Positions 1,848-61,895 of a stretch of DNA of 64,000 nt are shown piece by piece; positions within the stretch are counted from its first letter, which is position 1; each line of letters opens with the position of its first letter. The position numbers and the translations under genes were made by a program. This DNA comes from Diploptera punctata (Eukaryota; Arthropoda; Insecta; Blattodea; Blaberidae): NCBI GenBank assembly GCA_030220185.1, contig JASPKZ010007538.1:799501-863500 (forward strand), read 5' to 3'. The notes beneath the pieces are model-generated. The model saw only the letters and a program-made list of their open reading frames with translations. It did no database searches and was not told where the DNA came from.

Positions 1848-2130
1848 TTATGAAAATACATTAGAAAGTAACATTATGACGTTCTACTTAATAAATAAGT
1901 TTGGTCTGTCTGCATCTTACCTCATATTTCAGTGTTTCTTGTATAAGACTCCTTCAAGAGTCAAGATCCAGGACCGACATTTTATGAATCATCAGTCTGT
2001 ACCAACTGAAGATGAAGCAGAGATGCTTTGAAACATGTTTTACAAGAAACAACAAAATATGAGGTAAGTTGAAGGCAGACCAAACTTTTTCTAATATTTA
2101 AAGGAAGTGACACTATGAGATTTATTTTAG
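1848..2130 (+). mobile_element. Penelope-like element 3' end, short copy
   Basis: Starts with an AAAGTAACATTATGACG terminus and an inverted TTACCTCATATTTC block, then a 3' region with a hammerhead-like motif, AATATGAGGTAAG and a second terminus near 2105. No coding part remains. It has the layout of the other short PLE copies here. Confidence 0.65.
2003..2044 (+). ncRNA. hammerhead-like motif in PLE
   Basis: CTGAAGA at 2006-2012, one extra T, stem II AAGCA/TGCTT with loop GAGA plus a G-U pair, GAAAC at 2030-2034, stem III ACATGT (self-complementary), then T as position 17. The two bases after it (TT) pair with the AA before CTGA as the start of stem I. Confidence 0.65.
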
Positions 2131-6316: not shown

Positions 6317-6331
6317 TCCCAGACTCTGGGA

Positions 6332-12902: not shown

Positions 12903-12942
12903 TTTAACTGGTACTGATGTTGTATAAGTTGTACAATGGGTT

Positions 12943-13850: not shown

Positions 13851-13888
13851 ATGCTGAAGATGAAACATTGTTTTTGAGAGGCCTCCAT
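13851..13888 (+). ncRNA. hammerhead-like motif, partner of 12865-12902
   Basis: CTGAAGA intact (C at 13854), AAAC/GTTT stem II, GAGA in place of GAAA, stem III AGGCCT, C, then CAT able to pair with ATG 13851-13853. Each arm thus keeps the part the other has lost. Confidence 0.5.
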
Positions 13889-14137
13889 ATTGGAACTACT
13901 TAATGAAGTTTAATAATTTATTCATAGTTAAATATGGGAAATAACATTATGAGGTTCTTAATTCGTAAATTAATGAGTCATTTTTTAACATCATACCTCA
14001 TATTTTATGTTTCTTCAAACACGGGAACTAGTTTTCAAGAGAAGGATCTCTCGAAAACTAGTTCCTGTGTTTAATAATTTAGTTGAGTACCACTGACCTA
14101 CCAGGTACCAATTTTATATTTAATATCTTCTTACAGA

Positions 14138-14405
14138 AAAGGAAGCTACATTAACTATAAAATAGTGTTAAAATGCCACTAAAAAAAAGTCTTCTTGAAT
14201 AAGAAGCTGGTAATATGTGTAGAATGAAGGTTCTCAACTCCAAGCAAGTGCGATTATATAAGTAAGAGGAAAATTTCCAAGAGCTTAACTAACCCATTGG
14301 CACTATCGAACCCTTAGCTTCATGGCCACGTGGACATAAGCTCCCTATCCTGAGCTAATGTTTTCCAATTATTCCCTATATAATCTACTTCAAAGCTGAA
14401 GCAAG
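14138..14405. other. sequence upstream of LINE
   Basis: A block near 14320-14370 (GGCCACGTGG, GAGCTAATGTTTT) resembles 54830-54880, so part of this is repeat. It may be the 5' region of the LINE; I cannot place the LINE's 5' end. Confidence 0.35.
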
Positions 14406-14549
14406 TTGGGAGGCTGTAAGGTGGCAATCCCACCACCCAACTATGTCTGCGCAGCCCTTGTAAGGCGGCCAGATGAATTTTCTATTACTAAAAAGCGAAG
14501 GAGAAAGCCGGACGGAAACACTGATGATGGACCAGGCAAGAAAAGGACA

Positions 14550-17325
14550 ATGATAAAGAATAATTTACTATTGGCAACATGGAATATAAGAGGGCTAAAT
14601 AATAAACAGACAGAAGTTTTATATGAAATGAAAAAGGCAAAAAAGGCAAATATAATGCTCTTAACAGAAACAAAGAAAAAGTTGAAAGGGACACAGGATA
14701 TAGAAGATCACCTCCTTGTATATCATGGTGTAGAAAGACAACAACGTGCAACAGCTGGAGTAGCTATAATGATAGACCCCATTTGGAGGAAGAAAATACA
14801 TAGCTATACTTTTATATCAGAAAGAATAATTATTGTCAGGTTTAAAATACAAAGAGGATATATGACAATAATAGGTATATATGCACCAGAACAAGGGAAA
14901 AAAGAAAAAATTGAAAAATTTTATAAAGAACTTCAAAAAGTAGTGAATAAAGTAAATAAAAATGATTATATAGTTATTGGAGGTGATTTTAATGGAAGAA
15001 TAGGGTGCCATCCTATACCTGATATAATTGGTACACAAGGAGAAACAATAGAAAATGATAGTGGAAAAGAACTTCGACAATTTGCAATATTTAATGGATA
15101 CAGAATTACTAATACCTATTTTAGAAAGAAAGAAATACATAAGTACACCTGGTCGGCTAGAGGATTAAGATCAATTATTGATTATTTCTTGGTAAACAGA
15201 AAATTGATACCCTGGGTCACAGATGTAAGAGTATATAGAGGTTTCGATGTAGGAACAGATCATTTTCTCTTGACATGTAATATAAAATTATTAGAAAGAT
15301 GGAGGAAACCAACAACAAGAAAAATTTACAATGAAGAAACATATAAAGTGAATTTATTACAAGAAGAAAGTACAAGAAAGTTGTATGCAAATAGATTATC
15401 TCAATATATATTACAGCGAGAAATAAATAATAATATAGAAGAAGAATGGAGCAACATCGATTGGGCTCTAAAGAAAGCAGCATATGAAGTTCTAGGATTA
15501 AGAAGGAAAAATTGTAAGAAGAGAGGATTAAGAATATGGAATGACGAAATTAAAACAGTTATAGAGGAAAAGAAGAAAGCATATTTACAATATTTACAAA
15601 AGAAAACTGAAGAAACAAAAGAAATATATTATAACAAAAGAAAGGAAGCAAAGAAAATTGTTAGGAAATCCCACCAAGACAGTTGGGAACGATATGTATC
15701 TAATCTAGAACATGATCTACATGGACGACAATGGACTGCTTATAGAACAATTAAACATTTAAATAAATCAGAAAAAGAAGCTGCATATATACCTACATCA
15801 ATATCAGAAGAACATTGGATAGAATATTTCAGAGACCTGTGGTACAACGAGAATGAAAACGAAGAAGAACCAAAATGTGAGAATTTGAAAGTAGATAAAA
15901 TACAAATGGAAGAACTGGAAGAATCGCTCAAATTAACAAATAATAGAAAAGCTAGCGGACCAGATGACATCAATTCAGAACTAATTAAATATGCAGATAT
16001 ATTCTTTAAATTAAGATTCTTGAATTTTCTTAATATGTGTTGGGAGAATCATAATATACCAGCAACATGGAGGCAAGGTATAGTAAAACCAATTTACAAG
16101 AAAGGAGAAAGAAACCAACCATCTAATTACAGAGGCATTACCCTCCTAAATAGTGGATATAAAATCTATGCTAGAATAATAGCAAAACGAATACAACGAA
16201 TTACTGAAGTAACACTAGCAGAAGAACAAAACGGGTTCCGAAAAGGAAGATCTTGTACCGATGGAGTATTTGCCCTGAATCAGATAATAAACAAAAGACA
16301 AGAAAAAAACCTGGAAACACATTTGTTATTTATAGACTTAGATAAAGCATTTGATCGAGTAAACAGGGAAATATTGTGGAATATCCTAAAAGAAAAAGGC
16401 CTCCCTATTCAGATTATAGAAACTGTTAAGAGCTTGTACTATGGAACAAATATTTGTATTGACCCTCAGTTGACAAAAAATAAGACATTTTTTTCAAATA
16501 AACCAAGGAGTACGACAAGGGTGTTCACTCTCACCTATATTATTTAATATTTATATGGACGATATCCTAAAAGAATGGAAGAAGGTTTTAACTAATGAAG
16601 GAATATTAATTGATAATAAAGATAAAATAAATGCTTTATTATTCGCTGACGATGTTGTACTTTTAGCAGAATCTGAAAATGAGCTCCAAATGTTAGCATA
16701 TAAATTTAAATTAATAGCCAATAGATATAATTGTAAAATATCAATAAATAAGTCAAAAGTAATGGCATTTATTGGTAAATATGGAATTAGATCAAAAATT
16801 GTACTGGATAACAAAATAATAGAACAAGTATCACATTTCCAATATTTAGGATGTGATATAACTTATAGAGAAAATAAAGATATAGAAAATAAAGTAAATA
16901 AATTTCAGGCTATTTGTGGAACCATAAAAAGAACCTTAGGTCGGAAAACAAGGAAAGATACGAAACTTAAATTATATAAAACAATGGCTGTTCCTTTGTT
17001 GTTGTATGGAAGTGAAAATTGGATAATGAAATCAAGGGATAAAAGCAGGATACAGACTGCGGAAATGCTGTTTTTACGTAATGTGAAAGGATGCACAAGA
17101 GCGGATAGAATAAGGAATGAAACTATACGAGAAGAATTAAATATATATAAAATTGAAGATAAAATCAGCGAAAATAATAAGAAATGGACAGAACACTTAA
17201 TGAGAATGAACAACGAAAGAATACCAAAAAGAACCTTCCTGTATAATCCCAGAGGAACAAGAGATGTTGGCCGACCACGTAGAAGATGGACTCCACTTTT
17301 AACTTCGCCGGAACAGGCTGCATAG
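14550..17325 (+). pseudogene. non-LTR retrotransposon ORF, endonuclease plus RT, one frameshift
   Basis: Read from the ATG at 14550; the frame is open from 14406 without an ATG. An AP-like endonuclease comes first: LLLATWNIRGL, MLLTETKKK, GGDFNGRIG, SIIDYFLVNR and the TDHFLL box. Then RT motifs: SGPDDINSELIKY, KKGERNQPSNYRGITLLN, EEQNGFRKGRSCTD, FIDLDKAFDRVNRE. At 16488-16494 a run of seven T shifts the frame. In the new frame NQGVRQGCSLSPILFNIYMD and LLFADDVVLLAE follow directly, then HFQYLGCDIT and an LLYGSENWIM tail to the stop at 17323. After it comes an AGA-rich tail at 17338-17355. Order and motifs fit an RTE/BovB-like clade, which I infer. It lies in the same direction as Dark, in intron 2. 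Confidence 0.85.
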
Positions 17326-19489: not shown

Positions 19490-19800
19490 AATTTCCATTT
19501 AGGTAAATTTTATCACTCACCTCATATTTTTCTTCTTTTTTTAAACTAGTTTTGGTACTTTTCACTTCAGTTCCATCTTCAGTATTTTTGTGACTGTTAT
19601 TCTGTTGTCTTGAAGAGCCGCCTTTCGCTCCCTCTGTTGGTAGATGGAAAAACCTCGAAATCGGGTTGTTTTCCCCGGGAGACTCTTCAAAACTACAGAA
19701 CAATGGTCATGAAAGTACTGAAGATGGAACTGAAATGTAAAGTTCCGAAACTAGTTTAAAAAATGAAAAAAAAATATGAGGTGTGAATTCTTAAAATAAG
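19490..19800. mobile_element. PLE inverted pair, short
   Basis: Minus arm 19500-19680 and plus arm 19681-19790, with TATCACTCACCTCATATTT on the left and ATATGAGGTG on the right. The minus arm keeps a scrap of the protein end (PGENNPISRFFHLPTEG). Confidence 0.65.
19715..19760 (+). ncRNA. hammerhead-like motif, intact core
   Basis: CTGAAGA (C at 19718), extra T, stem II GGAACT/AGTTCC (6 bp), GAAAC at 19747-19751, stem III ACTAGT (19750-19755), then T. TA after the cleavage-type site pairs with TA before CTGA. The partner on the minus strand (about 19547-19590) has lost GAAAC. Confidence 0.7.
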
Positions 19801-20285
19801 TAAAAATTCCATTCAATGTTTTTATTATTCATTTCATACATCTCAGTAATGGACAAATTATATTTGAAGAGAAAAATTATATGCTCAGACTCGAACTCAA
19901 ACTCAGGACCTTTGGTTTTCTAGGCCAAGTGCTCTACCGATTGAGCTATCTGGGCGAGTTCCAATCTAAATGCAAATGTTTCTCTTATAAACTGTTAATT
20001 CCCGCGCACCAAATGCTATGAAACCTTTTGCTTCTATTTTTTGCAAATAGCAACTTCTTTATTAAGAAGACATTTATTTGCCATTGGCAACAAATAAAAG
20101 CAAAATGTTTCATAGCATTTGGTGCACGGAAATTAACAGCTTATAAGAGAAAGATTTGTGATTAGATTGGTACTTGCCCAGATAGCTCAGTTGGTAGAGC
20201 ATTGGCCTAGAAAGCCAAAGGTCCTGGGTTCAAGTCCCAGTCTGAGCATATAATTTTTCTCTTCAAATATGAAAAATTCCATTAT
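19800..20285. mobile_element. SINE family C, inverted pair
   Basis: A tRNA-like block on minus (about 19889-19961) and one on plus (20176-20248) face away from a central ATTAAGAAGA region. The plus block has good D, anticodon and T arms (GCTCAGTTGGTAGAGC, TTGGC/GCCAA, CTGGG/CCCAG). Confidence 0.75.
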
Positions 20286-20479: not shown

Positions 20480-21175
20480 TTATTTATATATATATATATA
20501 TATATATGGTATGATAAGAAAAATAAATGCCTGGGCGGGATTCGAACCCGGATCTCTGAGTCTTTACCTCAGCGTGATATCCATTACACTACCAGGCGAA
20601 TCCAATTCAAACACTTATTTTTCTTATATATGTATTATATTCTCCATTATTACTAGATGTCGCGAGAACTCGGTCTTCACTGCCATCTAGTAGCTGACTA
20701 TAACAAGTAAGCAAATTAAAGAGAATATTTTTACCTTATAGCAGTGACGCTTTATAGATGTTATAATTAAATGTTTAACATTGAGCAATGCAAGCTTAAT
20801 ATGGTATGATAAGAAAAATAAATGCCTGGACGGGATTCGAACCCGGATCTCTGAGTCTGTACCTCAGCGTGATATCCATTACACTACCAGGCGAATCTAA
20901 TTCAAACACTTATTTTTTTTATATATATATTATATTCTTATATATATATATTCTCCATGGCAGTGAAGACCGAGTTCTCGCGACATCTAGTAATAATGGA
21001 GAATATAATACATATATAAGAAAAATAAGTGTTTGAATTGGATTCGCCTGGGAGTGTAATGGATATCACGCTGAGGTACAGACTCAGAGATCCGGGTTCG
21101 AATCCCATCCAGGCATTTATTTTTCTTATCATACCATATTAAGCTTGCATTGCTCAATTTTAAACATTTAATTAT

Positions 21176-21180
<5 letters not shown>
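20480..21180. mobile_element. tRNA-derived SINE, family D, three blocks
   Basis: tRNA-like blocks on minus at about 20528-20600 and 20823-20894 and on plus at 21045-21116, with GATAAGAAAAATAAATGCC and CAAACACTTATTTTTCTTAT flanks. The last two form an inverted repeat over about 20801-21150, meeting in a segment also present, reversed, at 20640-20690 (ATGTCGCGAGAACTCGGTC). Confidence 0.7.
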
Positions 21181-23178: not shown

Positions 23179-23191
23179 TTAGTGATATTTT

Positions 23192-23600
23192 AATTATATT
23201 ATTTTTAGTCTGATCATCTTACCTCAATATTAATGTTGATTTGTTCTTGAACATGTTTCAAAACAATTCTGTTTTATCGTCACCTTGTCCAGACTGGTTT
23301 TATTTATGTTGCATTATGTTGCACAACCTGGATGTCGATGTCAGCTCCATCCTGTGGTTGGCCAAAGAACCTTCAAACAAGGTCATGCTCCAAGGTTCTT
23401 TGGCCAACCACAGGATGGAGCTGACATCGACATCCAGGTTGTGCAACATAAATAAAACCAGTCTGGACAAGCTGACGATAAAACAGAATTGTTTTGAAAC
23501 ATGTTCAAGAACAAATCAACATTAATATTGAGGTAAGATGTCCAGACTAAAAATAATATAATTAAAATAACCTCAAAATATAACCTCCTAAAATTAAATA
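23192..23600. mobile_element. PLE inverted pair with 13 bp target duplication
   Basis: TTAGTGATATTTT at 23179-23191 and 23601-23613. Arms of about 160 bp meet near 23388 (TTCTTTGGCCAACCACAGGA on the right, mirrored on the left). Only the right end has CCTCAAAATATAACCTCC. Confidence 0.8.
23469..23508 (+). ncRNA. hammerhead-like motif, intact core
   Basis: CTGACGA (C at 23472), extra T, stem II AAAAC/GTTTT with loop AGAATT, GAAAC at 23496-23500, stem III ACATGT, T, then C pairing with G23471. Further out GTCTGGAC (23461) and GTCCAGAC are complementary. The left-arm copy reads GTGACGA and has lost C3. Confidence 0.65.
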
Positions 23601-24230: not shown

Positions 24231-24465
24231 ATTAAATTAATGTTGGGAAATAAACATTATGAGATATAATCATTAAAATTCATCGGAGAACATTTTGTTT
24301 AAACAACTCACCTCATAGGATTCATACTTCCATGATACTGCAGTTTCAAACAGTCATGTTCATCCTCGGCCATAACTCCAACTGTGTTTGAAACTGCGGT
24401 ATCATGGAAGCATGAATCCTATGAGGTGAGTTGTTTAAACAAAATGTTCTCCAATGAGTTTTAAT
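24231..24465. mobile_element. PLE inverted pair in the SINE's target duplication
   Basis: TCCCTCTATTA appears at 24219-24229 and again at 24466-24476. The left end is GTTGGGAAATAAACATTATG; arms around GTTTCAAACA and TGTTTGAAAC are complementary; the right end stops at TGTTCTCC. Confidence 0.75.
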
Positions 24466-28203: not shown

Positions 28204-28324
28204 TATTTAAATTAATATTGGGAAGTAAACATTATGAGGTTATATCATTAATAGTGAGTGGAGAACATATTTTAATTTATGTATTAGGTGAGTCGATTAA
28301 AATATGTTCTCCACTCACTATTAA
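28204..28324. mobile_element. 121 bp PLE hairpin with 12 bp target duplication
   Basis: GGATAATATTTA at 28192-28203 and 28325-28336. The left end is ATATTGGGAAGTAAACATTA; GTGAGTGGAGAACATATTTT is mirrored by AAAATATGTTCTCCACTCAC. It lies inside piggyBac A near its 3' end. Confidence 0.8.
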
Positions 28325-29029
28325 GGATAATATTTAAAAATATTTTAATAATTGTAAAAATAACTCAGCAAGGAGGGTTTAAAAGGTTGGAAATATCTCA
28401 GAAGTGAAAAGGTTAAACATTTTTTTGAAATTTTCTATTCAAGAAAATTACTTCACATTCTGAAGTACTTAGAAAAAAAATGTTCTCCACTCAGTGTTAA
28501 CCCACTGGAGACACGTTTAAAGCGCCTAGCATGTTCACGGGGAACCCATTTAAATCTCCTCACTGCTACTCCATCTGCGGTGGACTTTAAATCAGAATGC
28601 AAAATATACATACTGTGTTCTATCACTTATGTTTTCAGATTTTTGTTTACCCCTGAATTTATTTTAGGATCTTGTACTTTTACGAATAGCAAAGGAATGT
28701 GGCCTGCCTGCTACCCTCTTTTGTGCATTGTAAACCGTTATGTTTTGTTCTTTTCAAGGCTGTGAAAGTCAACAAACAATTCAAAAACCATCTTTTTTTA
28801 ACAGTTCTGGGACATTGCCTTGAAAGTAAACACAAATCATATGTTCAAACAAGGCCGGAAAAAAAAAAGCAATATAATACTGTACATAATAAAAATAAAC
28901 ATATGAAACATAAATAAGCATAGACCTATACATTATAAAATCAGGAAAAGCTCTTCGTATCTTCTCTAATTATCTTATATATCAACCTGTAAATTATAAA
29001 ATACTATAGATAAAAACTGGACGAAACTC

Positions 29030-30995
29030 ACCTAGTATTTCTGAAGGGTGTGATACTTCCGAAAACACTCTGGAACATGTAGAGCAACAAGACATTTCTC
29101 ACATTCCCACATTGTTTCGCTCCTCTTCTTATTACTGGCACACACTCTGCAGGCTCTGGTGGGATTTTTCTACTTCTCAGTTGCATGTATGTGCCTTGGA
29201 AAACATAAGAATTGAATAGGGCAATATCCATAATGTAAAAAGCCATTTTTCTGTAGCCTTTTACAAATCTCCTCATTACAGGAAAACAAGCCAGACCCTG
29301 GTCATGTCGATCGATGCCACCCATACCTTTATTGTATTCTAGAATACATTTAGGCTTTACGACGTTTCCTTCTTGTTCTCCGCCTTTTTTCTTCCATTGC
29401 TTCTTACCGGTGTCAGTCATGTCGGCATTTTTGTGTTTGGATGATAAGAAATAATCATCTTTCTTATCTTTCCATTTCAATGCTAGAAGTCCCCGACTAG
29501 ATCGTGTTGCTACCTCTCCTTTTTTCAATTGACTAAATCTTTAGGCATATTTCTTCTGTTAGATCTTACTGTCCCCAATATATTTGTCTTTCGTCTATTG
29601 AGCTCAAAAAACAAATTAGGGGAAGAATACCAGTTGTCTAAATATGGTTGGTTGGTTGGTATCTAATGTCGAGCACTTGATAATGAAATCATTCGCTCTC
29701 TTGCACTCCAATATCTAGCAGAAAGGCTGGTCTCTTCTACAAAAGCTGGACAATGGAGGAGATGGTTTCTTTCCATATCTTCATTTAAATTGCAAAAAGG
29801 GCATTTAGGTGAATCTGTTATGCCAATTCTGTGTAGGTGTTTATTCAAGCAGTCATGTCCCGTTAGCAGTCTGAATGTTGCTACTGCAGATTTTCTTTGT
29901 AATGTAGTAATGTCATATGCTTGTAGATTTTCCCATTCCTTTCCAGATGTTTGTTGTCTAAATATAAAGTGTAGCCTTTCTCTAGGAAGGGATTTGCTAA
30001 CACTCTCACTTCCTGTAAAATCAGAATTTTCTTGTGCATCTTGCCCTGTGTATATTTTGAATCTCATACAATATCCCGAAGAAGACTCGCACAATTTGTA
30101 ATATTTTATTCCAAATCGCGCCCGTTTAGAGGGGTTGAATTGAACATAAGCCAGTCTACCTCGAAATTTCATAAGAGATTCGTCAAGTGAAATGTCTTCA
30201 TTTGGAACGTACAAAGTCAGAAATTTAGTATTCAAATATTCTACCAATGGTCTAATCTTGTAAATTCTGCCACCTCTAATTACGGACTCATTGTCATTGA
30301 AGTGAAGAAACCTCGAAATAAGGAAGAATCTTCTGAAGGGCATTGTTTTGCTGTAAATAGGCAGTTTCTAAAACTGCTCGTTTGCTCCAGTGCCATTTTA
30401 TTTTAGGTTTCCTAACTTGACTCATTAGGATGCAGAGTGCAAAATAGGCCTTCACTTCATCAGGGGTTGTATCTATCCACTTATCATCATAAAATTTCCT
30501 TTTGTAGCTGGGACTGCCGAAACACTGGTGTGCATATTTGTTAGTCTCCCTACTTATCATTTCCCAAAAATAATTATCTAAAAACTGGTTAAAAACTTCA
30601 TAAACAGAAAATTTATCTCTAATATTGTTCATGACAATGTCACTTATTTCAGAAGTTTCAGTGTACTTCCAAATTGTGGAGTTGTTCTCAATAGGAGTCC
30701 ATTGCCACTCGGTTGTGGCAGTTACATCATTTGATACACAATTCGACGTACTAGTACTATTACGACATTGATCTGTAATTTTCCTTTGTTTATGAGCGCT
30801 ACTAATTTGTTAATCTGATTCCTCAGTTTCACTGTCACTGCCATCAGTAGCACACACGGTTACGTTATCACTGTATATTATTTCATCGTTCGAATCTTCG
30901 TTCCATGATAATTCACTACAATTAGTCACATAACATTTCATTCACTACTTCACTTAGTTTGTCAATAGTAATACGTTCTCTCCTATTTGCGGACA
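29030..30995 (-). pseudogene. piggyBac transposase B
   Basis: Read from about 30995 down: an acidic N-terminus broken by stops; NNIRDKFSVYEVFNQFLDNY; RRFFLISRFLHFNDNES; DESLMKFRGRLAYVQF with the first catalytic D; KRARFGIKYYKLCESSSGYC; TGSESVSKS. A one-base shift then leads into GYTLYLDN, interrupted by a LINE, and resumes as DNWYSSPNLFFELNRRKTNI with the second D. YNKGMGGIDRHDQ carries the third. The zinc-binding tail (CRVCASNKK, WECEKCLVALHVPECF) lies in a shifted frame. All three catalytic residues are visible but at least three frame breaks make it inactive. Confidence 0.85.
29646..29952 (-). mobile_element. 5'-truncated LINE inside the transposase gene
   Basis: 13 bp direct repeat GTTGTCTAAATAT at 29633-29645 and 29953-29965. 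The minus strand reads KSAVATFRLLTGHDCLNKHL and CPFCNLNEDMERNHLLHCPA, the zinc-knuckle end of a LINE protein, then an ACCAACCAACC tail at the 29646 side. Confidence 0.85.
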
Positions 30996-31123
30996 TATTG
31001 CAAAACAAATAAAGTTAAATTTACAACCTATGAAGTTAAAAAATAAACATTGAATTTATTAAGGTAGAATATTTTTTTTATCACTCACCTCATATTGTTC
31101 TTCTTATTTGATTATAAACTAGT

Positions 31124-31156
31124 TTCGGAACATAATTTCTGTTCCATCCTCAGTAT
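31124..31156 (-). ncRNA. hammerhead-like motif, left arm
   Basis: CTGAGGA with C at 31153, stem II GGAACA/TGTTCC, GAAAC (31136-31132), ACTAGT (31128-31133), T. Same sequence as the right arm, both cores intact. Confidence 0.7.
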
Positions 31157-31502
31157 CGTCACGACCGTTGTTCTGTCGTTTTGAAGAGCTGTCCTTCTCT
31201 CCTTCCATTGGCTGACTGAAAAACCTCGAAACCAGGTCATTCTCACCGGGAATTTCAAAGTTCATTAATTTCTTCTTTTCGCTCTTTTGAATGTAGATCT
31301 TTTCCCAAACAGTAAGTTCTTTTGGTTTTTCTATTTGTTTTAATAATTTAGCTTCTTTCTCGATAAGATCTTTTTCAGACCATGCATGGGCAGCCACTGC
31401 AGATTTTTCTACTTCCCCTTTCTTGACGTTCCTGAGATGTTCTTTCACTCTAGTTTTCAAATTTCTCTTAGTTTTTCCTATGTAGAATTTCTCACATTTT
31501 CA

Positions 31503-32524
31503 AGTTCTGGTGCAGATATGTGGATGACATAATTGCTATAGTTAATTATAAACAGATAGATGATGCATTAAAATTATTGAACATTCAAAGTCAAACTATA
31601 AAGTTCACTATGGAAAAGGAAATCAATGGAGAAATACCATTTTTAGATCTCAACTTAAAAAGGAATGAAGAAAATAAGATAGAATTTGGAATTTACAGAA
31701 AGAAGACACATATAGATAACTACATAAAAGCTTTAGGTTTCAATCACATAGCTCACAAAGAAGCAGTTTTCAATAGTTTGACACATAGATTAGTGAACAT
31801 ACCGATGAACAAAGAAAATTATGAAAAAGAAAAAGAACACATAATCAACGTAGCCACGAAAAATGGTTTTGCAATAAAAATGATACTCAAAAAAATAAAC
31901 AAGTTCAAAAGACAAAAATTATTAATCAAAGCACTCTTCTAAAAGTAAAAGAAGATAATGTAAAATTTAGAAAATTCACATACCATCCATTAAAACACCA
32001 CAAGTTTCAAAAAATGTTTAAAGATTTCAACATAAGGTTAGCACCCAAAAATGACTACAGCATCAGTAGACTCATTAGACCTAATATGAATGAGAAAATT
32101 AAAGAAGAAAATAAATCAGGGATTTATCAAATTAAATGTGAAGAATGTGAGAAATTCTACATAGAAAAAAACTAAGAGAAATTTGAAAACTAGAGTGAAA
32201 GAACATCTCAGGAATGTCAAGAAAGGGGAAGTAGAAAAATCTGCAGTGGCTTCCCATGCATGGTCTGAAAAACATCTTATCAAGAAAGAAGCTAAATTAT
32301 TAAAACAAATAGAAAAACCAAAAGAACTTACTGTTTGGGAAAAGATCTACATTCAAAAGAGCAAAAAGAAGAAATTAATGAACTTTGAAATTCCCGGTGA
32401 GAATGACCTGATTTCGAGGTTTTTCAGTCAGCCAATGGAAGGAGAGAAGGACAGCTCTTCAAGACGACAGAACAACGGTCATGACGATACTGAGGATGGA
32501 ACAGAAATTATGTTCCGAAACTAG
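31503..32524 (+). pseudogene. PLE reverse transcriptase C-terminal half and GIY-YIG endonuclease
   Basis: Opens with KFWCRYVDDIIAIVN, the RT catalytic YVDD box, then PFLDLNLKRNEENKIEFGIY, GFNHIAHKEAVFNSLTHRLV and the KINKFKRQKL linker, a clear Penelope-type RT. One frameshift falls near 31925. GIYQIKCEECEKFYI follows near 32120, another shift removes the GK after YI, and RVKEHLRNVKKGEVEKS to FFSQPMEGEKDSS runs to the stop at 32522. The N-terminal RT half (including the first catalytic D) is missing, so this is 5'-truncated. Confidence 0.85.
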
Positions 32525-32529
32525 TTTAT
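32487..32529 (+). ncRNA. hammerhead-like motif, right arm
   Basis: CTGAGGA at 32490-32496, extra T, stem II GGAACA/TGTTCC (6 bp, loop GAAATTA), GAAAC at 32517-32521, stem III ACTAGT (32520-32525), T. TAT after it pairs with ATA before CTGA. It lies right after the PLE reading frame. Confidence 0.75.
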
Positions 32530-32939
32530 AATCAAATAAGAAGAACAATATGAGGTGAGTGATAAAAAATATTCTACCTTATTGAATTTATATTCACTTA
32601 TATTTTACCGTAATAAATGCCTACAACTATAGTCTGCTATTCTGTAAATAATATCTAAAATAAACTATACAATACACTAGGCCTATATATATTTACTTTA
32701 TATAAACAAACAAATTTTACTGATGTCGAACCGAAAATTCAAACCACTAAAAAACCCAACTTCTTACAGTGGAAGTTATAACACAACAATGAGTCTAGGT
32801 CGTGGTGGAGCTGTTTGAACTTTCTACCTGCTCACGAGGGAGACTCGTTAAAAGTCTCCAATGGGTTAATGTTGAGATAAGATATTACAGACTCAAAATA
32901 ATTTGACTTGAAAAGGTATTAATTTTAGGGACTATTATT

Positions 32940-33110
32940 ATAGAGACTTCTTTCTTAAGATGAATTAAAATGTTTCATACCTCTTCTCATAATTAATCTT
33001 CTAAGTAGATCGCAATTTTAGGGTCTTGGCAACCCCATCTTCAGTACACTTATGCCGACTGACGTTATGTCGATCAGAAGAACCACTTCTCCTTCCCTCT
33101 GTTGGACTTT
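32940..33110 (-). mobile_element. PLE 3' end fragment
   Basis: GAATTAAAATGTTTCATACC and CTAAGTAGATCGC belong to the subfamily of 54963-56969. The hammerhead block (33008-33047, -) has CTGAAGA but AAAA for GAAA. It ends 34 bases before exon 4. Confidence 0.6.
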
Positions 33111-33284: not shown

Positions 33285-34605
33285 CGAAGGCGGATCGGAA
33301 AGTAACGCACAATAATTTTTTTTAAAAAAGTTTAATAGTAAAAAAAAGGAAAAAATCACAAATGAACTTACATCTTTTACCTACTTTTCGACATAGTCAC
33401 CAACTTTCTCAACACATTTTTCCCATCGTGTTACCAGTTTCAATATGCCCTGTTCGTAGAAGTCCGTTTGGTTGGAGTGTAGCCATCTGCGCACTGCAGA
33501 TTTCACTTCCACATCTGTCTCAAAGCGTTTGCCGGCCAGGAATTTCTTCATGGGACCAAACAGATGAAAGTCCGATGGTGCAAGATCCGGACTGTATGGT
33601 GAATGCTGGAGCACCTCCCAACCAAATTTGGCGATTTTCTGACGAACGACAGCAGCAACATGGGGGCGAGCATTGTCATGAAGAAGTTTAACGTTAATGT
33701 TGTGACGTTTGTCACGAATGGCACGATGCAACTTCACCAAAGTTTTAATGTAGGCCGCAGCATTCACAGTGGTCCCGTGTTCAGCAAAGTCCACCAATAA
33801 AACACCATGCATATCCCAGAACACTGTCACAAGCACTTTCCTGGCAGATTGAGTCACTTTGAATTTTTTCTTTACTGGGGAACCAGCATGTTTCCACTCC
33901 ATTGATGCCTGCTTTGTTTCGGGCATGTAGTGGTACGCCCACGACTCATCACCTGTGACGATTCCTTCCAGAAAGTCATGTCCTTGTGCAGTGTACCGCG
34001 TTAAGTGGTCCAAGCTTGCCATCATTCGCTGGCCCTTGTGGTCGTCTGTCAGGTTCTTAGGCACCCAGCGAGCACTAACTTTACGGAATTTCAAATTTTC
34101 ATGAACAATATCGTACACCGCACAATAGGAAATGTTGAACTTCTGCGATAAGGCTCGCAGTTGCACATGCCGGTCGTTCAGAATTGCCGCCTCAATGCCT
34201 CTGACATTCTGCGGGATTGCTGCTGTTGTCGGCCGGCCGGAGCGTGGCGAATCACTAAGGTTCACACGTCCCTCTTGGAAGAATGTGCACCACCTGGAGA
34301 CATTGCTACGGTCCATACAATCATCCCCATACACGCCACACATGTCCCTGTGAATTTCACTGGGTTTATGCCCTTTGGCCCACAAAAATCGAACAACACT
34401 TCTCTGTTCCTCACAGGTGGACGACTGTAGCATGCGCGCCATCTTTGTTGCATAGTTCAAGCTTCTCTCGCAAGAGGTGCACCTGAGAAAAAAATACCAT
34501 CTGTAGTGAAAACTTCAAACTATATCTCTGTGAAATTTCAACATTCTAGCTGCAATACCAAGGCAGAAAAAAATTATTGTGCGTTACTTTCCGATCCGCC
34601 CTCGT
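33285..34605 (-). mobile_element. mariner element, apparently intact
   Basis: TA duplicated at 33283-33284 and 34606-34607. Terminal inverted repeats share GGCGGATCGGAAAGTAACGC and continue to about 38 bp with one mismatch (CGAAGG against CGAGGG). About 1.32 kb, the usual mariner size. Confidence 0.9.
33381..34460 (-). CDS. mariner transposase
   Basis: An uninterrupted 359-residue frame; family members are usually about 345-350, so the true start may be the second methionine (MARMLQ, residue 7). An N-terminal paired-like helix-turn-helix region (RSVVRFLWAKGHKPSEIHRD and DSPRSGRP) is followed by WVPKNLT and the catalytic triad: VTGDESW, LLHDNARPH and YSPDLAPSDFHLF. 34 residues separate the second and third aspartates, the DDD34D signature. 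The enzyme cuts and pastes the element at TA sites. All key residues are present, so this may be functional. Confidence 0.9.
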   Translation of the reverse strand: MNYATKMARMLQSSTCEEQRSVVRFLWAKGHKPSEIHRDMCGVYGDDCMDRSNVSRWCTFFQEGRVNLSDSPRSGRPTTAAIPQNVRGIEAAILNDRHVQLRALSQKFNISYCAVYDIVHENLKFRKVSARWVPKNLTDDHKGQRMMASLDHLTRYTAQGHDFLEGIVTGDESWAYHYMPETKQASMEWKHAGSPVKKKFKVTQSARKVLVTVFWDMHGVLLVDFAEHGTTVNAAAYIKTLVKLHRAIRDKRHNINVKLLHDNARPHVAAVVRQKIAKFGWEVLQHSPYSPDLAPSDFHLFGPMKKFLAGKRFETDVEVKSAVRRWLHSNQTDFYEQGILKLVTRWEKCVEKVGDYVEK

Positions 34606-35344: not shown

Positions 35345-36060
35345 AAAATTCTCTATACCTCATCTCATACCCAGTCTTCTAATTATACCGGTTTCGAAGC
35401 ATTAGGCAGCTTTATCTTCAGTAATTTCTTGTTAACAGATGAATTAAGAATCAAATGAATTGTGAATTCTTCTTATTTCATACATCTATGTTTTTTAACA
35501 CAGAACTGCAGTATCGGGAAATACTACATTCCCATCTTCAGCTGTTTTCACAATTGTAATTTTTTTATTATGCCAGTAATTTTCTAAACTGTCATCTGGC
35601 ATACTTTTGAAGAAGTAATTTTCTAAACTGCCATCAGATGTACTTTTGAAGAACTTTGTAATCAAACTTGGTTTGTCTGGAATCTCGGAAGTTCATGGTT
35701 CTAGTATGGTTTTTTGAATGTATATCTTTTTTCCAAAACTGTTAATTCCAAAGGTTTAGATGTTTCAAAAGTTTTGCTCCTTTTTCAATTCTATGATTCT
35801 CTAATAAAACTATGTGCTCCTATAAACTGATTTTTCAATTTTACCATTTTTTATGTTTCTAAAGTGTTCTTTCTTTTTTGTTAAAAAAACATAGATGTAA
35901 AGGGTAAGAAGACTTCAACAATTCATTTGATTCTTCTTAAGAAAAACCTCATGATGTAAAAATTCCCAAATTTATTATATTAACTGATGTTATGTCAATC
36001 GGGAGTTCTCCTGAAAATATCAAAACATGTTCAAATAGAACACAACAGTTTATGAGAAAA
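35345..36060. mobile_element. PLE fragments, two subfamilies
   Basis: 35345-35440 is a minus-strand 3' end with an excellent hammerhead block. 35450-35860 is a minus copy of the GATA subfamily with decayed endonuclease sequence. 35880-35990 is its inverted terminus (CCTCATGATGTAAAAATTCC). 36000-36060 is a further plus scrap with AAAACATGTTC. Confidence 0.6.
35381..35426 (-). ncRNA. hammerhead-like motif with long stem I
   Basis: CTGAAGA with C at 35421, stem II AAGC/GCTT, GAAAC, stem III ACCGGT (35387-35392), cleavage-type A. TAATT after the site pairs with AATTA before CTGA, five base pairs of stem I. Confidence 0.7.
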
Positions 36061-37344: not shown

Positions 37345-37600
37345 TTGTAACATGCATAGTGCATAATTTCCCTAATAGTCTTATCAATAAAATTAAAATC
37401 AGTCTTTACATCATTTCACCTCATACACTCCGTGTTCTTCACAGCACAGGATTGCAGTTTCAGGAACAGTCATTCCTTTCTTCAGCCATCTTTTCTACTG
37501 TTGAATTTTTGCCTTTACCATCGTCTTCTAAACTGCTATATAGTGTTAATTTGAGAAATTTGAAATTCCTGGCAAACAAATTTTAATCTATATTTGAAGA
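37345..37600 (-). mobile_element. PLE 3' end
   Basis: AAAATTAAAATCAGTCTTTA, TTTCACCTCATACACTCC and a hammerhead block; the protein end is decayed. A related inverted end at 40870-40970 and a terminus at 43300-43330 may be its other half, split by later insertions (inference). Confidence 0.55.
37446..37489 (-). ncRNA. hammerhead-like motif, core intact
   Basis: CTGAAGA with C at 37485; the extra base is A here; stem II AGGAA/TTCCT; GAAAC; stem III ACTGCAAT, one change from self-complementary; then C. C-G and two G-U pairs can start stem I. Confidence 0.6.
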
Positions 37601-40668: not shown

Positions 40669-40970
40669 ATTAGTAAGAGGGTATGAGGTTTAATTTAAGA
40701 TTTAAATTAAAAATTCTTTATACCTCACGTCATATCCAGTTTTCTAATTAAACTCGTTTCAAAGAAGATGAAATCACCTAGGTTTTGAAACCAGTTAAAT
40801 TAGAAGACTGGATATGACGTAAGGTATAAAGAATTTTTATTTAAATCTTAAACTAGATGATGATGGTGAAGGCAAAAATTCAACAGTTGAAAATATGGCT
40901 GAAGATAAGAACGGCTGTTCCTGAAACCGTGGCCCTATGCTGTGAATGAGATGAGATGATGTACACCCTT
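40669..40970. mobile_element. PLE palindrome and adjoining 3' end
   Basis: 40705-40860 is a palindrome (ATTCTTTATACCTCACGTCA mirrored by TGACGTAAGGTATAAAGAAT) with TTTCAAAG and TTTGAAAC at the loop. 40870-40950 has a plus hammerhead-like block with CTGAAGA, GAAC/GTTC and GAAACCG. Confidence 0.6.
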
Positions 40971-48895: not shown

Positions 48896-49800
48896 ATAAA
48901 TAAAATGAATCTGGTGCATCTTACCTCATAAATATTTGGGTTTTGTTTGACATATTTTTATATGCTGCCCATATCATTGTTAGCTTGTCCAGACTGTTGA
49001 ATTTTATTCATAGTTAAATACGGGAAAAAACCGTATGAGGTTCTTAATTAATGAATTAATGACTCGTTTTTTACAGTCATAAAATTGAAAAAGAGGCCAA
49101 ACTTTTAAAATATTTGGAAAAACTAATGTAACAAATTTGGGAATTATTAATAGTGAGTGGAGAACAATATTTTTATATATAATATATTTTTTTAATATAT
49201 AATATAAAAATCTTACTATTAATGATATAAACTCATAATGTTTACTTCCCAACATTAATTTAAATAAAATTTGAGAATTTTTACATTATGAGGTTTTCTT
49301 AATAAGAATCAAATCGTGAATTCTTCTTACTCATGCATCTATGTTTTTTTTAAACACAGAACTGCAGTATCGGGGAATACATCATTTCCATCTTCAGCTG
49401 TTTTCATGGAAAATTGACAGTCGTGAGAACAGCTGAAGATGGGAATTATGTATTTCCCGATACTGCAGTTCTGTGTTTAAAAAAACATAGATGTATGAGG
49501 TAAGAAGAATTCACAATTTATTTTATTCTTATTTGGAAAAACCTTTAGAATTGATATTTTGAGAAAAGATATATATTCAGAAGAACAAATTAGATCCATG
49601 AAATTCAAAATTCCTAATGAATGGGACTTGATCTTGAAGTTCATTAAATCAACACCAGATGGCAACGTTATGGATGGAGATTCCAACGAAAATCTGGTAA
49701 TCATAATATCAGTTGAAAATGAGAGATATGTTCTCTTGAAAACTGCAGTTCCCGTGTTTAAGAAAACATAAGATATGAGGTAAGATGTAAAAAAAATGAC
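48896..49800. mobile_element. PLE cluster, several copies
   Basis: 48905-49010 is a minus 3' fragment. 49130-49258 is a hairpin with GTGAGTGGAGAAC. 49262-49540 is a GATA-subfamily palindrome with arms of about 110 bp and a hammerhead-like block each side. 49559-49771 is a plus protein-end frame (IPNEWDLILKFIKSTPDG). Confidence 0.65.
49430..49473 (+). ncRNA. hammerhead-like motif, core variant GATA
   Basis: CTGAAGA (C at 49433), extra T, stem II GGGAA/TTCCC, GATAC where GAAAC is expected, stem III ACTGCAGT, T. The same GATA is in the copies at 3700 and 35510, so the loss predates their spread. A14 to U should abolish cleavage. Confidence 0.5.
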
Positions 49801-54059: not shown

Positions 54060-54720
54060 GTGACCTCGATGTTTAGAAATAAGAATATTATTAGATGTGG
54101 AAGTTTAAAAATAATAGGTCTTAAATGAATGTTAATAAGCTAAAGCTTTTACTATGATTGAAATAAGCAAATTAATGTACAAAACTATTGTAATCAATGG
54201 TAAAGAGAATAATTTTTGCCTGAACCAGGAATCAAATCCTGAACCTTCAGCTTTCCATGCTGACGCTCTGACCACTGAGCTAATTTAGGCTTCATTCCCA
54301 CCCAAGCATAAATCTACCCTTTACCTTACTCTCTTGGTCCCACATTCAATGTAATGAATCATCATTCACAAATACAGAATGAATGGCTTCTACATTAAAA
54401 AGACATGAAGGGACTCCACACAGCTACAGCATTATTGATTAAATTAATGTTGAGAAGCTAAAGCTATTACTGTGATTTAAATAAGTAAATTAATGTTCAC
54501 GACAAAACTATTGTAATCAATAGTACAGAGAAAAATGTTTGCCTGAACCAGGAATCAAACCCCAAACCTTCAGCTTTCTATGCTGATGCTCTGAGGTAAT
54601 TTAGGCTACATTCCCATCCTAGCATAAATCTTCCCTTTTCCTTACTCTCTTGGTCCCACATTAAATGCAATGAATCATCATTCACAAATACTTTAAGAAG
54701 ACACAATAATTGGTCTGTTC
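54060..54720 (-). repeat. tandem dimer of a tRNA-like repeat, family F
   Basis: Two ~322 bp units, each with a minus tRNA-like block (TGCCTGAACCAGGAATCAAA at 54218 and 54540) and the flank CTTACTCTCTTGGTCCCACA. The second block has lost part of the D arm. Confidence 0.65.
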
Positions 54721-55051
54721 ACCCTTTAAATTCTTACGTGATCTGAGTTTAAGCGGCATGAGCCAGGTTGGTTTCTCTCTAGTATTTCTTTTGTAAATAA
54801 CTGGTACTATCAATTCTGGAAGTACGTGGCCACGTGGTACAAAATTCTATATACATCCATTCCTAAGCTAATGTTTTTCAATCAAAAGTAGCAGTAGTAT
54901 CAAATGACAGGCATTTAGCATTTAAGCTATTTTCCTTCAAGCTTCCCGATATAATTATTGAATTAACCTTTTTTTATAGGAATTATCACTGTGAGGTTCA
55001 ATTCAATATTAAATTAAAAGATTCTTACCTCTCCTCACATTATTCTGTTAA

Positions 55052-55094
55052 GTAGATCGCGATTTCAGGCCTATAGCAGGCCCATCTTCAGTAC
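55052..55094 (-). ncRNA. hammerhead-like motif, left arm
   Basis: CTGAAGA with C at 55091; same sequence as the right-arm motif; core, stem II and stem III intact. Confidence 0.75.
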
Positions 55095-55279
55095 ACTGTT
55101 GTTGACCGGTGTTATGTCGCTCGGAAGAACCACTTCTTCTTCCCTCTGTTGGTGGACCGATGAACCTCTTGATAAGGTCAAAATTTGCGGGAACTTCGAA
55201 GTTCATCAGTTTTCCTTTGTTTTTCTGAATGTGGATCTTTTCCCAAACTGTAAGTTCCTTAGGTGTCTATTGTGTTTAA

Positions 55280-56066
55280 TTAGACTAGCTTTGATTCAAT
55301 TCGATGTTTTTCGTACCAAGCATGAGCAGCTACTGCTGACTTTTCCAATTCTCCATTTTTGACATTTCTAAGATGTTCCTTCACCCTTGTTTTCAAATTT
55401 CTTTTCGTTTTTCCTATATAAATTTTGTCACAATCTTTACATTTGATCTGATAAATTCCTGATTTATTTTCTTCTTCAATTTTTTCATTTTTGTTGGTTT
55501 TAATTATCCTATTAAGGCTGTATTCATTCTTAGGTGCTAATCTTATATTAAACTTTTTGAAAATTTTTTGAAATTTGTAGTGTTTCAATGGATGGTAAGT
55601 GAATTTCTTGAATTTTATTTTTTCTGTTTGTTTTATCAGTGTGCTTTCATTAATTAATTTTTGTCTTTTGAATTTATTTATTTTTCCTGTGTACCATGCT
55701 TTCATCATAACCATTATCTGTTGCCACATTAATTATGTATTCTTTTTCTCTTTTATAGTTTTCTGGGCTCATAGGAATATTTACTAATCTGTATGCTAAG
55801 CTATTGAACACTGCCTCTTTGTGAGCAAAATGGTTGAAACCCGAAGCTTTAATATAGTTGTCTATATGAGTATTCTTTCTATATATTCCAAATTCTATCC
55901 TGTTTTCTTTGTTTCGTGTTAAATTAAGATCCAAAAATGTCAAACAGAAACAAATTGAGGATGCTTTGAAGCTTTTGAACATCCAGAGTAGAACGATAAA
56001 ATTCACCATGGAAACTGAGATTGAAAGACAAATCCCATTTTTGGATCTTAATTTAACACGAAACAA
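55280..56066 (-). pseudogene. PLE RT/endonuclease, left arm
   Basis: DLNLTRNKENRIEFGIYRKN, then INKFKRQKLINESTL, SGIYQIKCKDCDKIYIGKTK and RVKEHLRNVKNGELEKSA. A frameshift at about 55700 separates the RT part from the endonuclease part. The YVDD box is not included. In this arm YIGKTK is intact. Confidence 0.8.
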
Positions 56067-56929
56067 AGAAAACAGGATAGAATTTGGAATATATAGAAAG
56101 AATACTCATATAGACAACTATATTAAAGCTTCGGGTTTCAACCATTTTGCTCACAAAGAGGCAGTGTTCAATAGCTTAGCATACAGATTAGTAAATATTC
56201 CTATGAGCCCAGAAAACTATAAAAGAGAAAAAGAATACATAATTAATGTGGCAACAGATAATGGTTATGATGAAAGCATGGTACACAGGAAAATAAATAA
56301 ATTCAAAAGACAAAAATTAATTAATGAAAGCACACTGATAAAACAAACAGAAAAAATAAAATTCAAGAAATTCACTTACCATCCATTGAAACACTACAAA
56401 TTTCAAAAAATTTTCAAAAAGTTTAATATAAGATTAGCACCTAAGAATGAATACAGCCTTAATAGGATAATTAAAACCAACAAAAATGAAAAAATTGAAG
56501 AAGAAAATAAATCAGGAATTTATCAGATCAAATGTAAAGATTGTGACAAAATTTATATAGAGAAAAACGAAAAAAAATTTGAAAACAAGGGTGAAGGAAC
56601 ATCTTAGAAATGTCAAAAATGGAGAATTGGAAAAGTCAGCAGTAGCTGCTCATGCTTGGTACGAAAAACATCGAATTGAATCAAAAGCTAGTCTAATTAA
56701 ACAAATAGAGACACCTAAGGAACTTACAGTTTGGGAAAAGATCCACATTCAGAAAAACAAAGGAAAACTGATGAACTTCGAAGTTCCCGCAAATTTTGAC
56801 CTTATCAAGAGGTTCATCGGTCCACCAACAGAGGGAAGAAGAAGTGGTTCTTCCGAGCGACATAACACCGGTCAACAACAGTGTACTGAAGATGGGCCTG
56901 CTATAGGCCTGAAATCGCGATCTACTTAA
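55909..56929 (+). pseudogene. PLE RT/endonuclease, right arm
   Basis: IEDALKLLNIQSRTIKFTME from the spacer, then the same RT end and linker as in the left arm, open to 56607. IYIEKNEKK shows that the second G of the YIG-K stretch is changed and the frame shifts, and RVKEHLRNVKNGELEKSA to FIGPPTEGRRSG continues to 56929. The catalytic RT box is absent. Confidence 0.8.
56883..56925 (+). ncRNA. hammerhead-like motif, right arm, best stem III
   Basis: CTGAAGA (C at 56886), extra T, stem II GGGCCT/AGGCCT, GAAAT at 56911-56915, stem III ATCGCGAT (56914-56921), C as site (AUC). TAC after it pairs with GTA before CTGA. All core bases present. Confidence 0.75.
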
Positions 56930-56991
56930 CAGAATAATGTGAGGAGAGGTAAGAATCTTTTAATTTAATATATAATTATTGAAATTAATTT

Positions 56992-57545
56992 GGAGGTCGA
57001 AACAATTCTTCATAAGACTTAAACTAAGTTTGTTTAATTCAAATGTGAAATCAATTTTATTAAATGGCTGTAAAACTTGGAAAGCTACAAAACAAATTGG
57101 AAAAAATTGTAAATCGTTATAAATCGTTACCTGAGAAATATCTTGGGGTATATGGTGGCCAGAGATTATAACAAATAAAAAAATTTGGAGAAGAACGAAT
57201 CAAAATGAAATTGTAAAGAAATTTAATTTAGAAAATGGAAATGGGTTGGTCATGTATCAAGGAGAGAGAGAATGATAACATCACAAAAGTGGCATTTGAT
57301 TGGATCCCCCAAGGATTGAGAAGGCGAAGAGGAAGACCTAGGGCAACATGGAGTAATACCATCAGGGATGAAGCTGAACAGGCAGGGATGAGTTGGAATG
57401 AAATTAAGGCATTGGCAAACAACAGAGTTTGTTGGCGAGTTTTTATCAAGGCCCTATGCTTCCCAGTGGAGTGACCAATATAATTCCACAATGTCTCTCT
57501 AGTTTTGTCTGATGACACTGTAGAAGATGATGTTGGTTAAATCTT
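56992..57545 (+). pseudogene. LINE 3' fragment
   Basis: Traces of an RT tail (WWPEIITNKKIWRRTNQNEI) and a clear C-terminus: DWIPQGLRRRRGRPRATW, RDEAEQAGMSWNEIKALANN and RVCWRVFIKALCFPVE to the stop near 57472. Confidence 0.75.
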
Positions 57546-57995: not shown

Positions 57996-58400
57996 TTGCC
58001 AGGCAATGATGATAGAGAACTTTTTCATTCACCAGACCTGATACCCTTGACTTTTTTGTGGGGCTTTGTTAAAGATCTTGTGTACAAGCCAAGCCTTCCA
58101 CTTACCGTTCTTGATCTAAGAGCACACATCACAGTGCTATCTCATCAATTACCTCATATGCTACAACATACTCGGGCAGAAATAAGACTAATAAATTAAT
58201 GAGTCATTTTAACATCTTACCTCATGAGGTAAATGTTAAAATGACTCATTAATTTATTAATTAAGAACCTCATAATGTGTTTCCCAATTTTAACTTTGAA
58301 GAAATAAGACTACTGGTTTAATGTGTGCCTTGTTACACAAGGAGCTCACATAGTACATCTGTAAGGTACTGTAACCAAAATTTTTTTAGTTTCTCTTTCC
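57996..58400 (+). pseudogene. mariner-related transposase, C-terminal fragment
   Basis: SPDLIPLTFLWGFVKDLVYK with the last catalytic region, PLTVLDLRAHITVLSHQLPH and RAEIRL. The frame then stops at a PLE insert (58191-58300) and resumes with remains of the CR-THGAH-type end. Same group as 7679-8215. Confidence 0.65.
58191..58300. mobile_element. 110 bp PLE hairpin with 12 bp target duplication
   Basis: GAAATAAGACTA at 58179-58190 and 58301-58312. ATTAATGAGTCATTTTAACA is mirrored by TGTTAAAATGACTCATTAAT. The right end has CCTCATAATGTGTTTCCC. It interrupts the transposase fragment. Confidence 0.85.
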
Positions 58401-58439: not shown

Positions 58440-58900
58440 TTTACACATTATATTTGAAGAGATAAATTATACGCTCAGACTGGGGTTTGAACCTAGGACC
58501 TTTTGCACTCTAGGCAAATGCTCTACCAACTGAGCTATCTGAGAAACTCCAATCTAAATGCAATTTTTTCTCTTATATACACTGTTAATTCCTGCGTACC
58601 AAATGCTATGAAGCTATTGCTTCTATCTTGTAAAAGAGGCTTCTTTATTAAGAAGACCTTTAATTGGGAATTTTTCATTACATTATAAAGTCAGAATGGC
58701 TTCTTTCAATGTTTTTATTATTCATTTCATACATCTCAATGATGGATCATTTGCATTTAGATTGGAGTTTCTCAGACAGCTTAGTTGGTAGAGCATTCAC
58801 CTAGAGTGCAAAAGATCCTGGGTTCAAACCCCAGTCTGAGCGTATAATTTTTCCCTTCAAATATTGTTATTCCATCTCCTTCAAATATTGTTATTCCATC
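58440..58900. mobile_element. SINE family C, inverted pair
   Basis: Minus block 58468-58545 and plus block 58765-58842 (GCTTAGTTGGTAGAGCA, GGGTTCAAACCCCAGTC) around an ATTAAGAAGA linker. A 19 bp stretch at the end (TTCAAATATTGTTATTCCAT) is duplicated. Confidence 0.7.
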
Positions 58901-61585: not shown

Positions 61586-61895
61586 GGAAGTAACATTATG
61601 AGGTTCTTATTAAACAAGGTGAGTCTGTTTTCATCTTACCTCATAGAAGTTGAGTTCTTTTAGAACATTTTTAATACAAATCTTCAGCTTGTCCAGACTG
61701 ATAATTTTTACATTGTTGGCCCTGGATGTATTCTTTGACAATGGAGTAAGAGTTGATATCCAGGGCCGACATCATACAAGCTGAAAATAAAACACAATTT
61801 TGTTTGGAAAAACATGTCCTAAAAGAACTCGAACTTCTATGAGGTAAGATGAAAACAGACTCACTACTTGCTGTAAAATTCACTTTGAATCCTTG
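61586..61895. mobile_element. PLE inverted pair
   Basis: Terminus AGGAAGTAACATTATGAGG. Arms 61630-61740 and 61745-61870 are complementary (TTCATCTTACCTCATAGAAG; CTGGATGTATTC against GATATCCAGGGCC). The plus hammerhead-like block near 61783 has CTGAAAA, AAAAC/GTTTG and ACATGTC; the minus block has CTGAAGA only. Confidence 0.65.

Follow-up and report, generated by a model that had tools for sequence, protein, structure and literature searches.

Small hammerhead variants of Penelope-like retrotransposons reportedly cleave as dimers, as Lunse, Weinberg and Breaker are said to have found in 2017. Those variants reportedly resemble the copies described here in their association with Penelope-like elements (PLEs), their diminished stem III and their dimer architecture; we can name no difference of kind, and the change of palindrome letters between groups is shown directly here. 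Hammerhead ribozyme (HHR) motifs in the pseudo-LTRs (pLTRs) of PLEs were described by Cervera and de la Pena in 2014, as related in the available portions of later papers (PMC6155905, PMC7761336, PMC7229834), whose descriptions likewise reveal no difference of kind from our motifs. Two of these accounts portray PLE hammerheads as lacking helix III and as possibly acting as dimers (PMC6155905, PMC7761336), and one describes their role in vivo as unknown (PMC7761336). As far as these excerpts go, small dimer-forming hammerheads linked to PLEs have already been published (2014, 2017), and the copies reported below add to that kind.

For the Anolis Poseidon element PAc, the available excerpts state that HHR cleavage depends on the protein and that insertion in vitro can do without it (PMC11167929). 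PAc and the elements described here are alike in an HHR near the pLTR/ORF junction, an RT/GIY-YIG protein and an optional tail set by two start sites of reverse transcription; the PAc ORF, however, begins at HHR stem II, whereas the ORF here ends inside or just past the motif. The Penelope elements of Adineta vaga are similar in their inverted pLTRs, mostly head-to-head, with junction palindromes and an optional tail, and in their target-site duplications, of 8–10 bp there; the word hammerhead is absent from the available part of that account (PMC3846280). Animal retrozymes, too, carry type I HHRs in retroelements (PMC7229834, in excerpt), but the motif here belongs to PLE ends with coding remnants, which adjoin several of the motifs, and no tandem HHR array, such as the non-coding repeats of ~170–400 nt that make up retrozymes, was seen among tandem repeats searched at 12500-14300, 54500-57500 and 30500-33000. 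Neither hammerhead nor ribozyme occurs as a word in the available part of a 2026 D. virilis paper (PMC12910113). The accessible portions of these accounts mention no ORF that ends in the ribozyme, no group in which a core change is fixed and no tRNA-bearing elements of this insertion anatomy, and we claim no novelty for them.

How does the present locus compare? In a 64,000-nt stretch of Diploptera punctata DNA (the window), PLE 3′ ends probably carry minimal hammerhead motifs of type I, as already known in PLEs, situated where the GIY-YIG reading frame ends in the 3′ terminal repeat and acting as dimers by way of a palindrome. Read from sequence, this would add a covariation-backed case of dimer-type hammerheads for an insect PLE-rich region.

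Host elements in the window

The window is AT-rich (30–38% GC) and packed with mobile elements. Searching it by tblastn with four of its PLE ORFs returned about a dozen PLE coding stretches. Pfam GIY-YIG matches were obtained for two of the four ORFs scanned (E 2.8e-5 and 3.8e-8), the latter in ORF 55280-55729 (-), a relative of the PLE frame at 56561-56929; no RT domain, which in canonical PLEs is telomerase-like and lies N-terminal to GIY-YIG, was matched in these four, and the PLE ORFs found are C-terminal fragments only. Over 99% of its length, the protein fragment encoded at 10808-11287 (-) shares 92% identity with a protein from Diploptera punctata. As is typical of PLEs, the GIY-YIG domain lies upstream of the 3′ repeat, with a frame continuous into the motif in three copies, and elements form inverted repeat arrangements; of 16 pairs tested, five have target-site duplications. 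Tail DNA from downstream of the ribozyme was not found in bacterial and archaeal genome contigs, nor were PLE proteins in viral contigs, which is what one would expect of an insect. Other mobile elements of the window include a non-LTR retrotransposon ORF with endonuclease and RT domains (14406-17325) and a mariner-type transposase ORF of 359 aa (33381-34460).

The motif at 56883-56925 and its sister copies

On the plus strand, the letters at 56883-56925 are identical to those of the preliminary description. The stem I 5′ strand GTA (56883..56885), which pairs with TAC at 56923-56925, precedes the hammerhead core box CTGAAGA (56886..56892; generally CTGANGA) and one unpaired T (56893). Stem II follows (GGGCCT, loop GCTAT, AGGCCT; 56894..56910), then the second core box GAAA (56911..56914), the palindromic stem III block TCGCGA (56915..56920), which is the proposed dimer helix, and TC with the stem I 3′ strand TAC (56921..56925), the predicted cut falling after 56922. 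A custom covariance model, of which this copy is itself a part, matches 56881-56929 with 38.8 bits. An inverted partner arm at 55052..55094 (-) has the same motif letters, with a predicted cut after 55055.

The other sites cited earlier were likewise verified, namely 32490, 23472 and 2006 on the plus strand and 37485 and 35421 on the minus strand. The motif at 32487..32529 (+) has a CTAG stem III and a predicted cut after 32526, and its inverted partner arm (31114..31156, -), identical in motif letters, would be cut after 31117. The CATG group is represented at 23467..23514 (+; 45.3 bits), with a partner arm at 23241-23288 (-; 37.5 bits) in which C3 is changed to G, and a CATG block also occurs at 2001..2048 (+; 47.5 bits, in the model). 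That partner arm, 23283-, has features in common with 8436- (8327-8522) that its opposite arm lacks, which may mean that two templates took part in one insertion (23186-23569), although the sister-arm test was not significant. A CCGG block accompanies a five-pair stem I at 35377..35426 (-; 45.5 bits, in the model), and the hammerhead-like motif at 37443..37490 (-; 42.3 bits, in the model) has the block CTGCAA, which is not fully self-complementary. Two copies with GATA cores (49397- and 49433+) form the arms of a palindromic pair at 49353..49477.

The stem II pairings listed in the preliminary description hold throughout, an A-C mismatch in 35421 lying outside its four named pairs. Its claim of a self-complementary block is borne out for TCGCGA, CTAG, CATG, CCGG and CTGCAG but fails at 37485, and the pairing that it had described between the bases flanking the core is present in the 56886, 32490 and 35421 groups, but only one or two pairs adjoin the core in the 23472 and 2006 groups.

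Copies and integrity of the core

A profile built from 12 seeds found further copies in the window. From the search matches, leaving out those in which the core region was unrecognisable, we curated 35 PLE 3′ ends by hand and sorted them by eye into about 14 groups. Exact CTGANGA is present in 26 of the 35, and U4 is T in 32; N7 is A in 24, G in five, C in three and T in three. All core letters are intact in at least 13 copies, changed in 20 and ambiguous in two (3882-, 44196-), so that the order CUGANGA...GAAA...UH of PLE-type hammerheads is found complete in at least 13/35 copies and 7/14 groups. These seven groups with a clearly intact core are 56886, 32490, 19718, 23472, 2006, 35421 and 37485; the remaining seven are known only by changed or doubtful cores. 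The very short, self-complementary stem III that characterises the dimer type is likewise present. In the 49433 group, GATA replaces GAAA in all four copies (49397-, 49433+, 35541-, 3679+), while the CTGCAG block is exact in three and stem II intact in two.

Covariance searches with Rfam and with a custom model had been proposed as a check on the motif. The custom model, made from 14 copies, marked 27 places in the window at E <= 0.005, 14 of them the training copies and six of the other 13 partner arms of training copies. Rfam yielded no hammerhead at gathering thresholds, nor any among the 53 matches at E up to 10.

Evidence for a conserved RNA structure

The combination of CTGANGA, a stem II of at least five pairs, GAAA, a palindrome and TH occurs at nine sites in the window, which are related copies and not independent events. 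Across 300 dinucleotide shuffles it averages 0.003 occurrences and never exceeds one. Adding a stem I of at least three pairs leaves four sites, against none in the shuffles.

Stem II carries the mark of compensation. In 14 representatives, aligned by MAFFT without regard to structure, 93.9% of 82 stem II cells are paired, against 65.3% after shuffling; the covariation score is 0.940 against 0.367, and 30 cells are changed on both sides against 9.3, none of 500 shuffles being as high in any of the three. Sliding the stem II partner by one column lowers pairing to 62% or 47%. All six pairs show change on both sides, against a shuffled mean of 4.1 (38 of 500 reach six), and the 12 further pair types are unremarkable beside a shuffled mean of 11.1, since 192 of 500 shuffles have as many. 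Because the sequences are related, exchanging strands between copies is a plainer control than shuffling: with 12 distinct strand pairs, stem II strands form 59 of 60 pairs with their own partners, against a mean of 40.7 when swapped, and none of 200,000 swaps reached 59, with the reservation that strands and groups were chosen by eye, which favours the result, and that seven of the 14 groups enter with changed or doubtful cores. Compensation is also visible between close relatives, two stem II pairs differing between 56886 and 33044 in a fully compensated and amino-acid-changing manner; 33044, which is represented only once, reads AAAA at the GAAA position.

The block before the cut keeps its self-complementarity while its letters differ between groups. 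Across nine distinct blocks, and counting G-T, 22 of 23 pairs are self-complementary, compared with 11.8 for scrambled letters (1 in 200,000 scrambles does as well). Stem I is weaker: its first three nucleotides give 31 of 39 pairs against 21.6 when swapped (41 of 200,000); over five nucleotides and without G-T pairs, 5,009 of 200,000 swaps do as well. Stem I comprises two to five pairs in most groups, one junction-closing pair in the 23472 group, and one or two inner pairs in the CATG group.

Taken together, shuffles, covariation and strand swaps support a hammerhead-type RNA structure under selection in PLE 3′ regions. Might the motifs nevertheless be non-functional relics, old ribozyme copies carried along in decayed PLEs? 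The PLE ORFs of the window are fragments and the core is changed in 20 of 35 copies, as such relics would have it; but the covariation between groups indicates past selection in active lineages, and in the recent pair 55091/56886 the motif is intact. We regard this explanation as quite improbable.

Overlap with the protein reading frame

The ribozyme motif overlaps the end of the PLE protein gene. In three copies (31153-, 32490+, 56886+), a frame reading xCT GAN GAT through the core is open for 108–115 codons upstream, into GIY-YIG coding. At 56561..56929 (+), the end of the PLE reading frame, encoding the C-terminal GIY-YIG part, has 108 open codons ahead of the core and stops just past the motif; the longer upstream coding at 55909-56607 stands in a different frame. 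The frame at 32165..32526 (+), which runs open through the 108 codons that precede the 32490 core, finishes in the motif, as does that at 31499-31117 (-), open for 115 codons. In most copies, the frame through the core ends within or soon after the motif.

This arrangement raises the question whether the conserved letters merely serve the protein, with the core CTGANGAT representing codons xCT GAN GAT (Thr/Ala, Glu/Asp, Asp) and the pairing being incidental. Besides the long open frames in 31153-, 32490+ and 56886+, most of the 35 copies do read T/A-E/D-D at the core, with N7 as a wobble base. U4, however, is a wobble base as well, yet it is T in 32 of 35 copies while N7 is free. GAAA spans all three codon phases among nine representatives and falls beyond the stop in two of them (the 19718 and 35421 groups); the nine are those of 14 with an exact, correctly placed GAAA, leaving aside 12292, 24369 and 19164 (misplaced offset), one AAAA and one GATA. 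Stem II changes, moreover, compensate at positions that change the amino acid. We read the conservation of U4, the phases of GAAA and the compensated stem II changes as a probable constraint on the RNA, and a purely protein-coding origin of the conserved letters as very improbable.

The overlap also bears on the earlier argument that N7 varies as in true hammerheads. The variation is real (A, G, C and T all occur), but N7 is the wobble base of the overlapping Asp/Glu codon and would vary anyway, so it is not independent evidence and proves nothing alone. More generally, an overlap with the end of the reading frame lets constraints on RNA and on protein be separated base by base.

Proposed dimer formation and mechanism

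The sequences display a conserved core, a covarying stem II and a palindrome of 4–6 nt that replaces helix III. Since this helix has no loop, a dimer would be needed. Folding five segments as monomers gave no single-strand hammerhead fold (z -1.88 to 0.01), which is expected of a stem III without a loop and is uninformative for a dimer motif. When two copies were folded freely as a dimer, stem II together with a fully paired block formed in six of ten representatives. The gain over scrambled blocks was weak, with 4–34 of 100 scrambles equalling it in six groups and 55–100 of 100 in the other four (for two of these, 49433 and 24369, the segment was one base out of frame); almost any palindrome can pair in this way.

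In the mechanism that we propose, the palindrome would pair two motifs, either on two RNA molecules or as tandem copies in one transcript, and the paired motifs would form a double hammerhead that cuts after a T-H dinucleotide. Such cutting could free element units from read-through or tandem transcripts, leaving 5′-OH ends. It would probably be slow, assisted by the PLE protein and not required for insertion itself, in which reverse transcription would start roughly 50–110 nt further downstream. The role that the preliminary description had assigned to these motifs, processing of the PLE transcript, accordingly stays a predicted one.

Head-to-head insertions and the predicted cut

Many PLE 3′ ends of the window stand head-to-head. 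Thirteen palindromes without a spacer have PLE 3′-end sequence on at least one arm (4526-4785, 4939-5062, 6216-6432, 12179-12389, 14017-14072, 19518-19783, 23186-23569, 24272-24465, 28243-28329, 40691-40855, 49294-49540, 58189-58259 and 61619-61864), and three inverted PLE pairs are spaced (10524-11978, 31053-32588 and 55000-56977). In five of the 16 pairs tested, direct repeats of 10–14 bp lie, on visual inspection, immediately beside the element ends: 55091/56886, 31153/32490, 10617/11885, 23283/23472 and 12275/12292. The first of these, with arms 99% identical, is flanked by the 14-bp duplication ATATAATTATTGAA (+; left 54949..54962, right 56970-56983). A sixth pair has a 15 bp repeat that belongs to another PLE, and the other ten have repeats of 6–10 bp. 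Repeat length itself separates poorly (own mean 9.6, against 8.2 in 240 mismatched combinations, 15 of which reach at least 11), so the target-site duplications are argued from their position at element ends and not from length. At least the five repeat-flanked pairs look like single insertions, in agreement with the available accounts of A. vaga Penelope (PMC3846280) and of two-strand extension by PAc (PMC11167929).

Does the predicted cut leave a mark on these insertions? The centres of ten palindromes (those listed above except 14017-14072, 28243-28329 and 58189-58259) range in position between 94.5 nt upstream of the core start and 8 nt past it, and none of the ten falls at the predicted cut; 5′ truncations do not cluster there either. 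Cut RNA ends thus have no clear signature in the genome. Where pairs have a target-site duplication, their insertion ends lie about 47–107 nt beyond the predicted cut, which, together with the lack of a truncation cluster, gives no genomic sign of cut RNA as the usual template. At the asymmetric pair 1926-/2006+ (1894-2090), the alignment of one arm begins at 2038, next to position 2039 where the cut is predicted, and we treat this as a single coincidence.

The palindrome may instead have been kept mainly as a site that links two RNAs, such that two template RNAs would be held by a PLE protein dimer while both cut DNA strands are copied, with self-cutting secondary or lost. Were this so, it would account for a stem III that remains self-complementary as its letters vary, even where the core has changed, and for the frequency of head-to-head insertions. 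Several observations speak for it. The 49433 group has GATA cores in 4/4 copies, yet the exact CTGCAG in 3/4, and five of 16 tested head-to-head pairs bear duplications of 10–14 bp. Both DNA strands are extended by PAc, a protein that is predicted to dimerise and that inserts without HHR activity (PMC11167929), and the 23283-/23472+ arms differ by a 10-bp duplication and by two bases that 23283- shares with 8436-. The same evidence has its counterweights, however: the GATA change may stem from one dead lineage, the PAc results are silent on any palindrome in the available excerpts (PMC11167929), the test of 23283-/23472+ as non-sister arms was not significant (AU p 0.157), and the arms 10617-/11885+ have changed bases in common. 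A palindrome alone would not keep the core boxes so conserved (26/35 exact CTGANGA). On balance, we consider a mainly RNA-linking palindrome unlikely, and dimer-acting hammerheads the probable reading. The head-to-head insertions, the altered-core group and the tRNA-bearing elements described below offer ways to test whether selection keeps cutting, dimer formation or something else.

tRNA-bearing elements and other features

Rfam placed 17 tRNA-like sequences in the 64 kb (19860-20270, 20759-21179, 58450-58864, 12940-13703). Several occupy the outer ends of palindromes or of inverted pairs, three lie in a 308-bp tandem array of 2.5 copies, and many are found inside an inverted repeat such as AAGAGAAAAAT...ATTTTTCTCTT. 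In one palindrome, whose tRNAs lie at 19882 and 20248, one end is longer than the other, and a repeat of 12 nt flanks the palindrome (19802, 20272). In insertion anatomy these elements resemble PLE ends, with a tRNA in the hammerhead's place. A tblastn search with four PLE ORFs, which was not thorough, found no PLE coding beside the tRNA-like sequences, and a narrow phrase search of the literature for PLE-mobilised SINEs gave no match.

Downstream of the ribozyme, a conserved splice-donor-like TATGAGGTRAG recurs (56933-56990, 55000-55050, 61600-61645 and other copies). Copies with a long tail have ACCTCATA downstream, which is able to pair, giving a possible hairpin TATGAGGT/ACCTCATA with the splice-donor-like GGTRAG; one of its pairs is A-T in most copies, G-C in 55091 and T-A in 23472, a compensated change. 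Copies without the ACCTCATA tail also give 6–8 of 8 pairs from the AT-rich background, and the hairpin is only a lead. Finally, sub-threshold Rfam microRNA matches coincide with palindromic repeats (19951-20180, 20871-21067, 49352-49482), and such repeats are a source of false microRNA calls.
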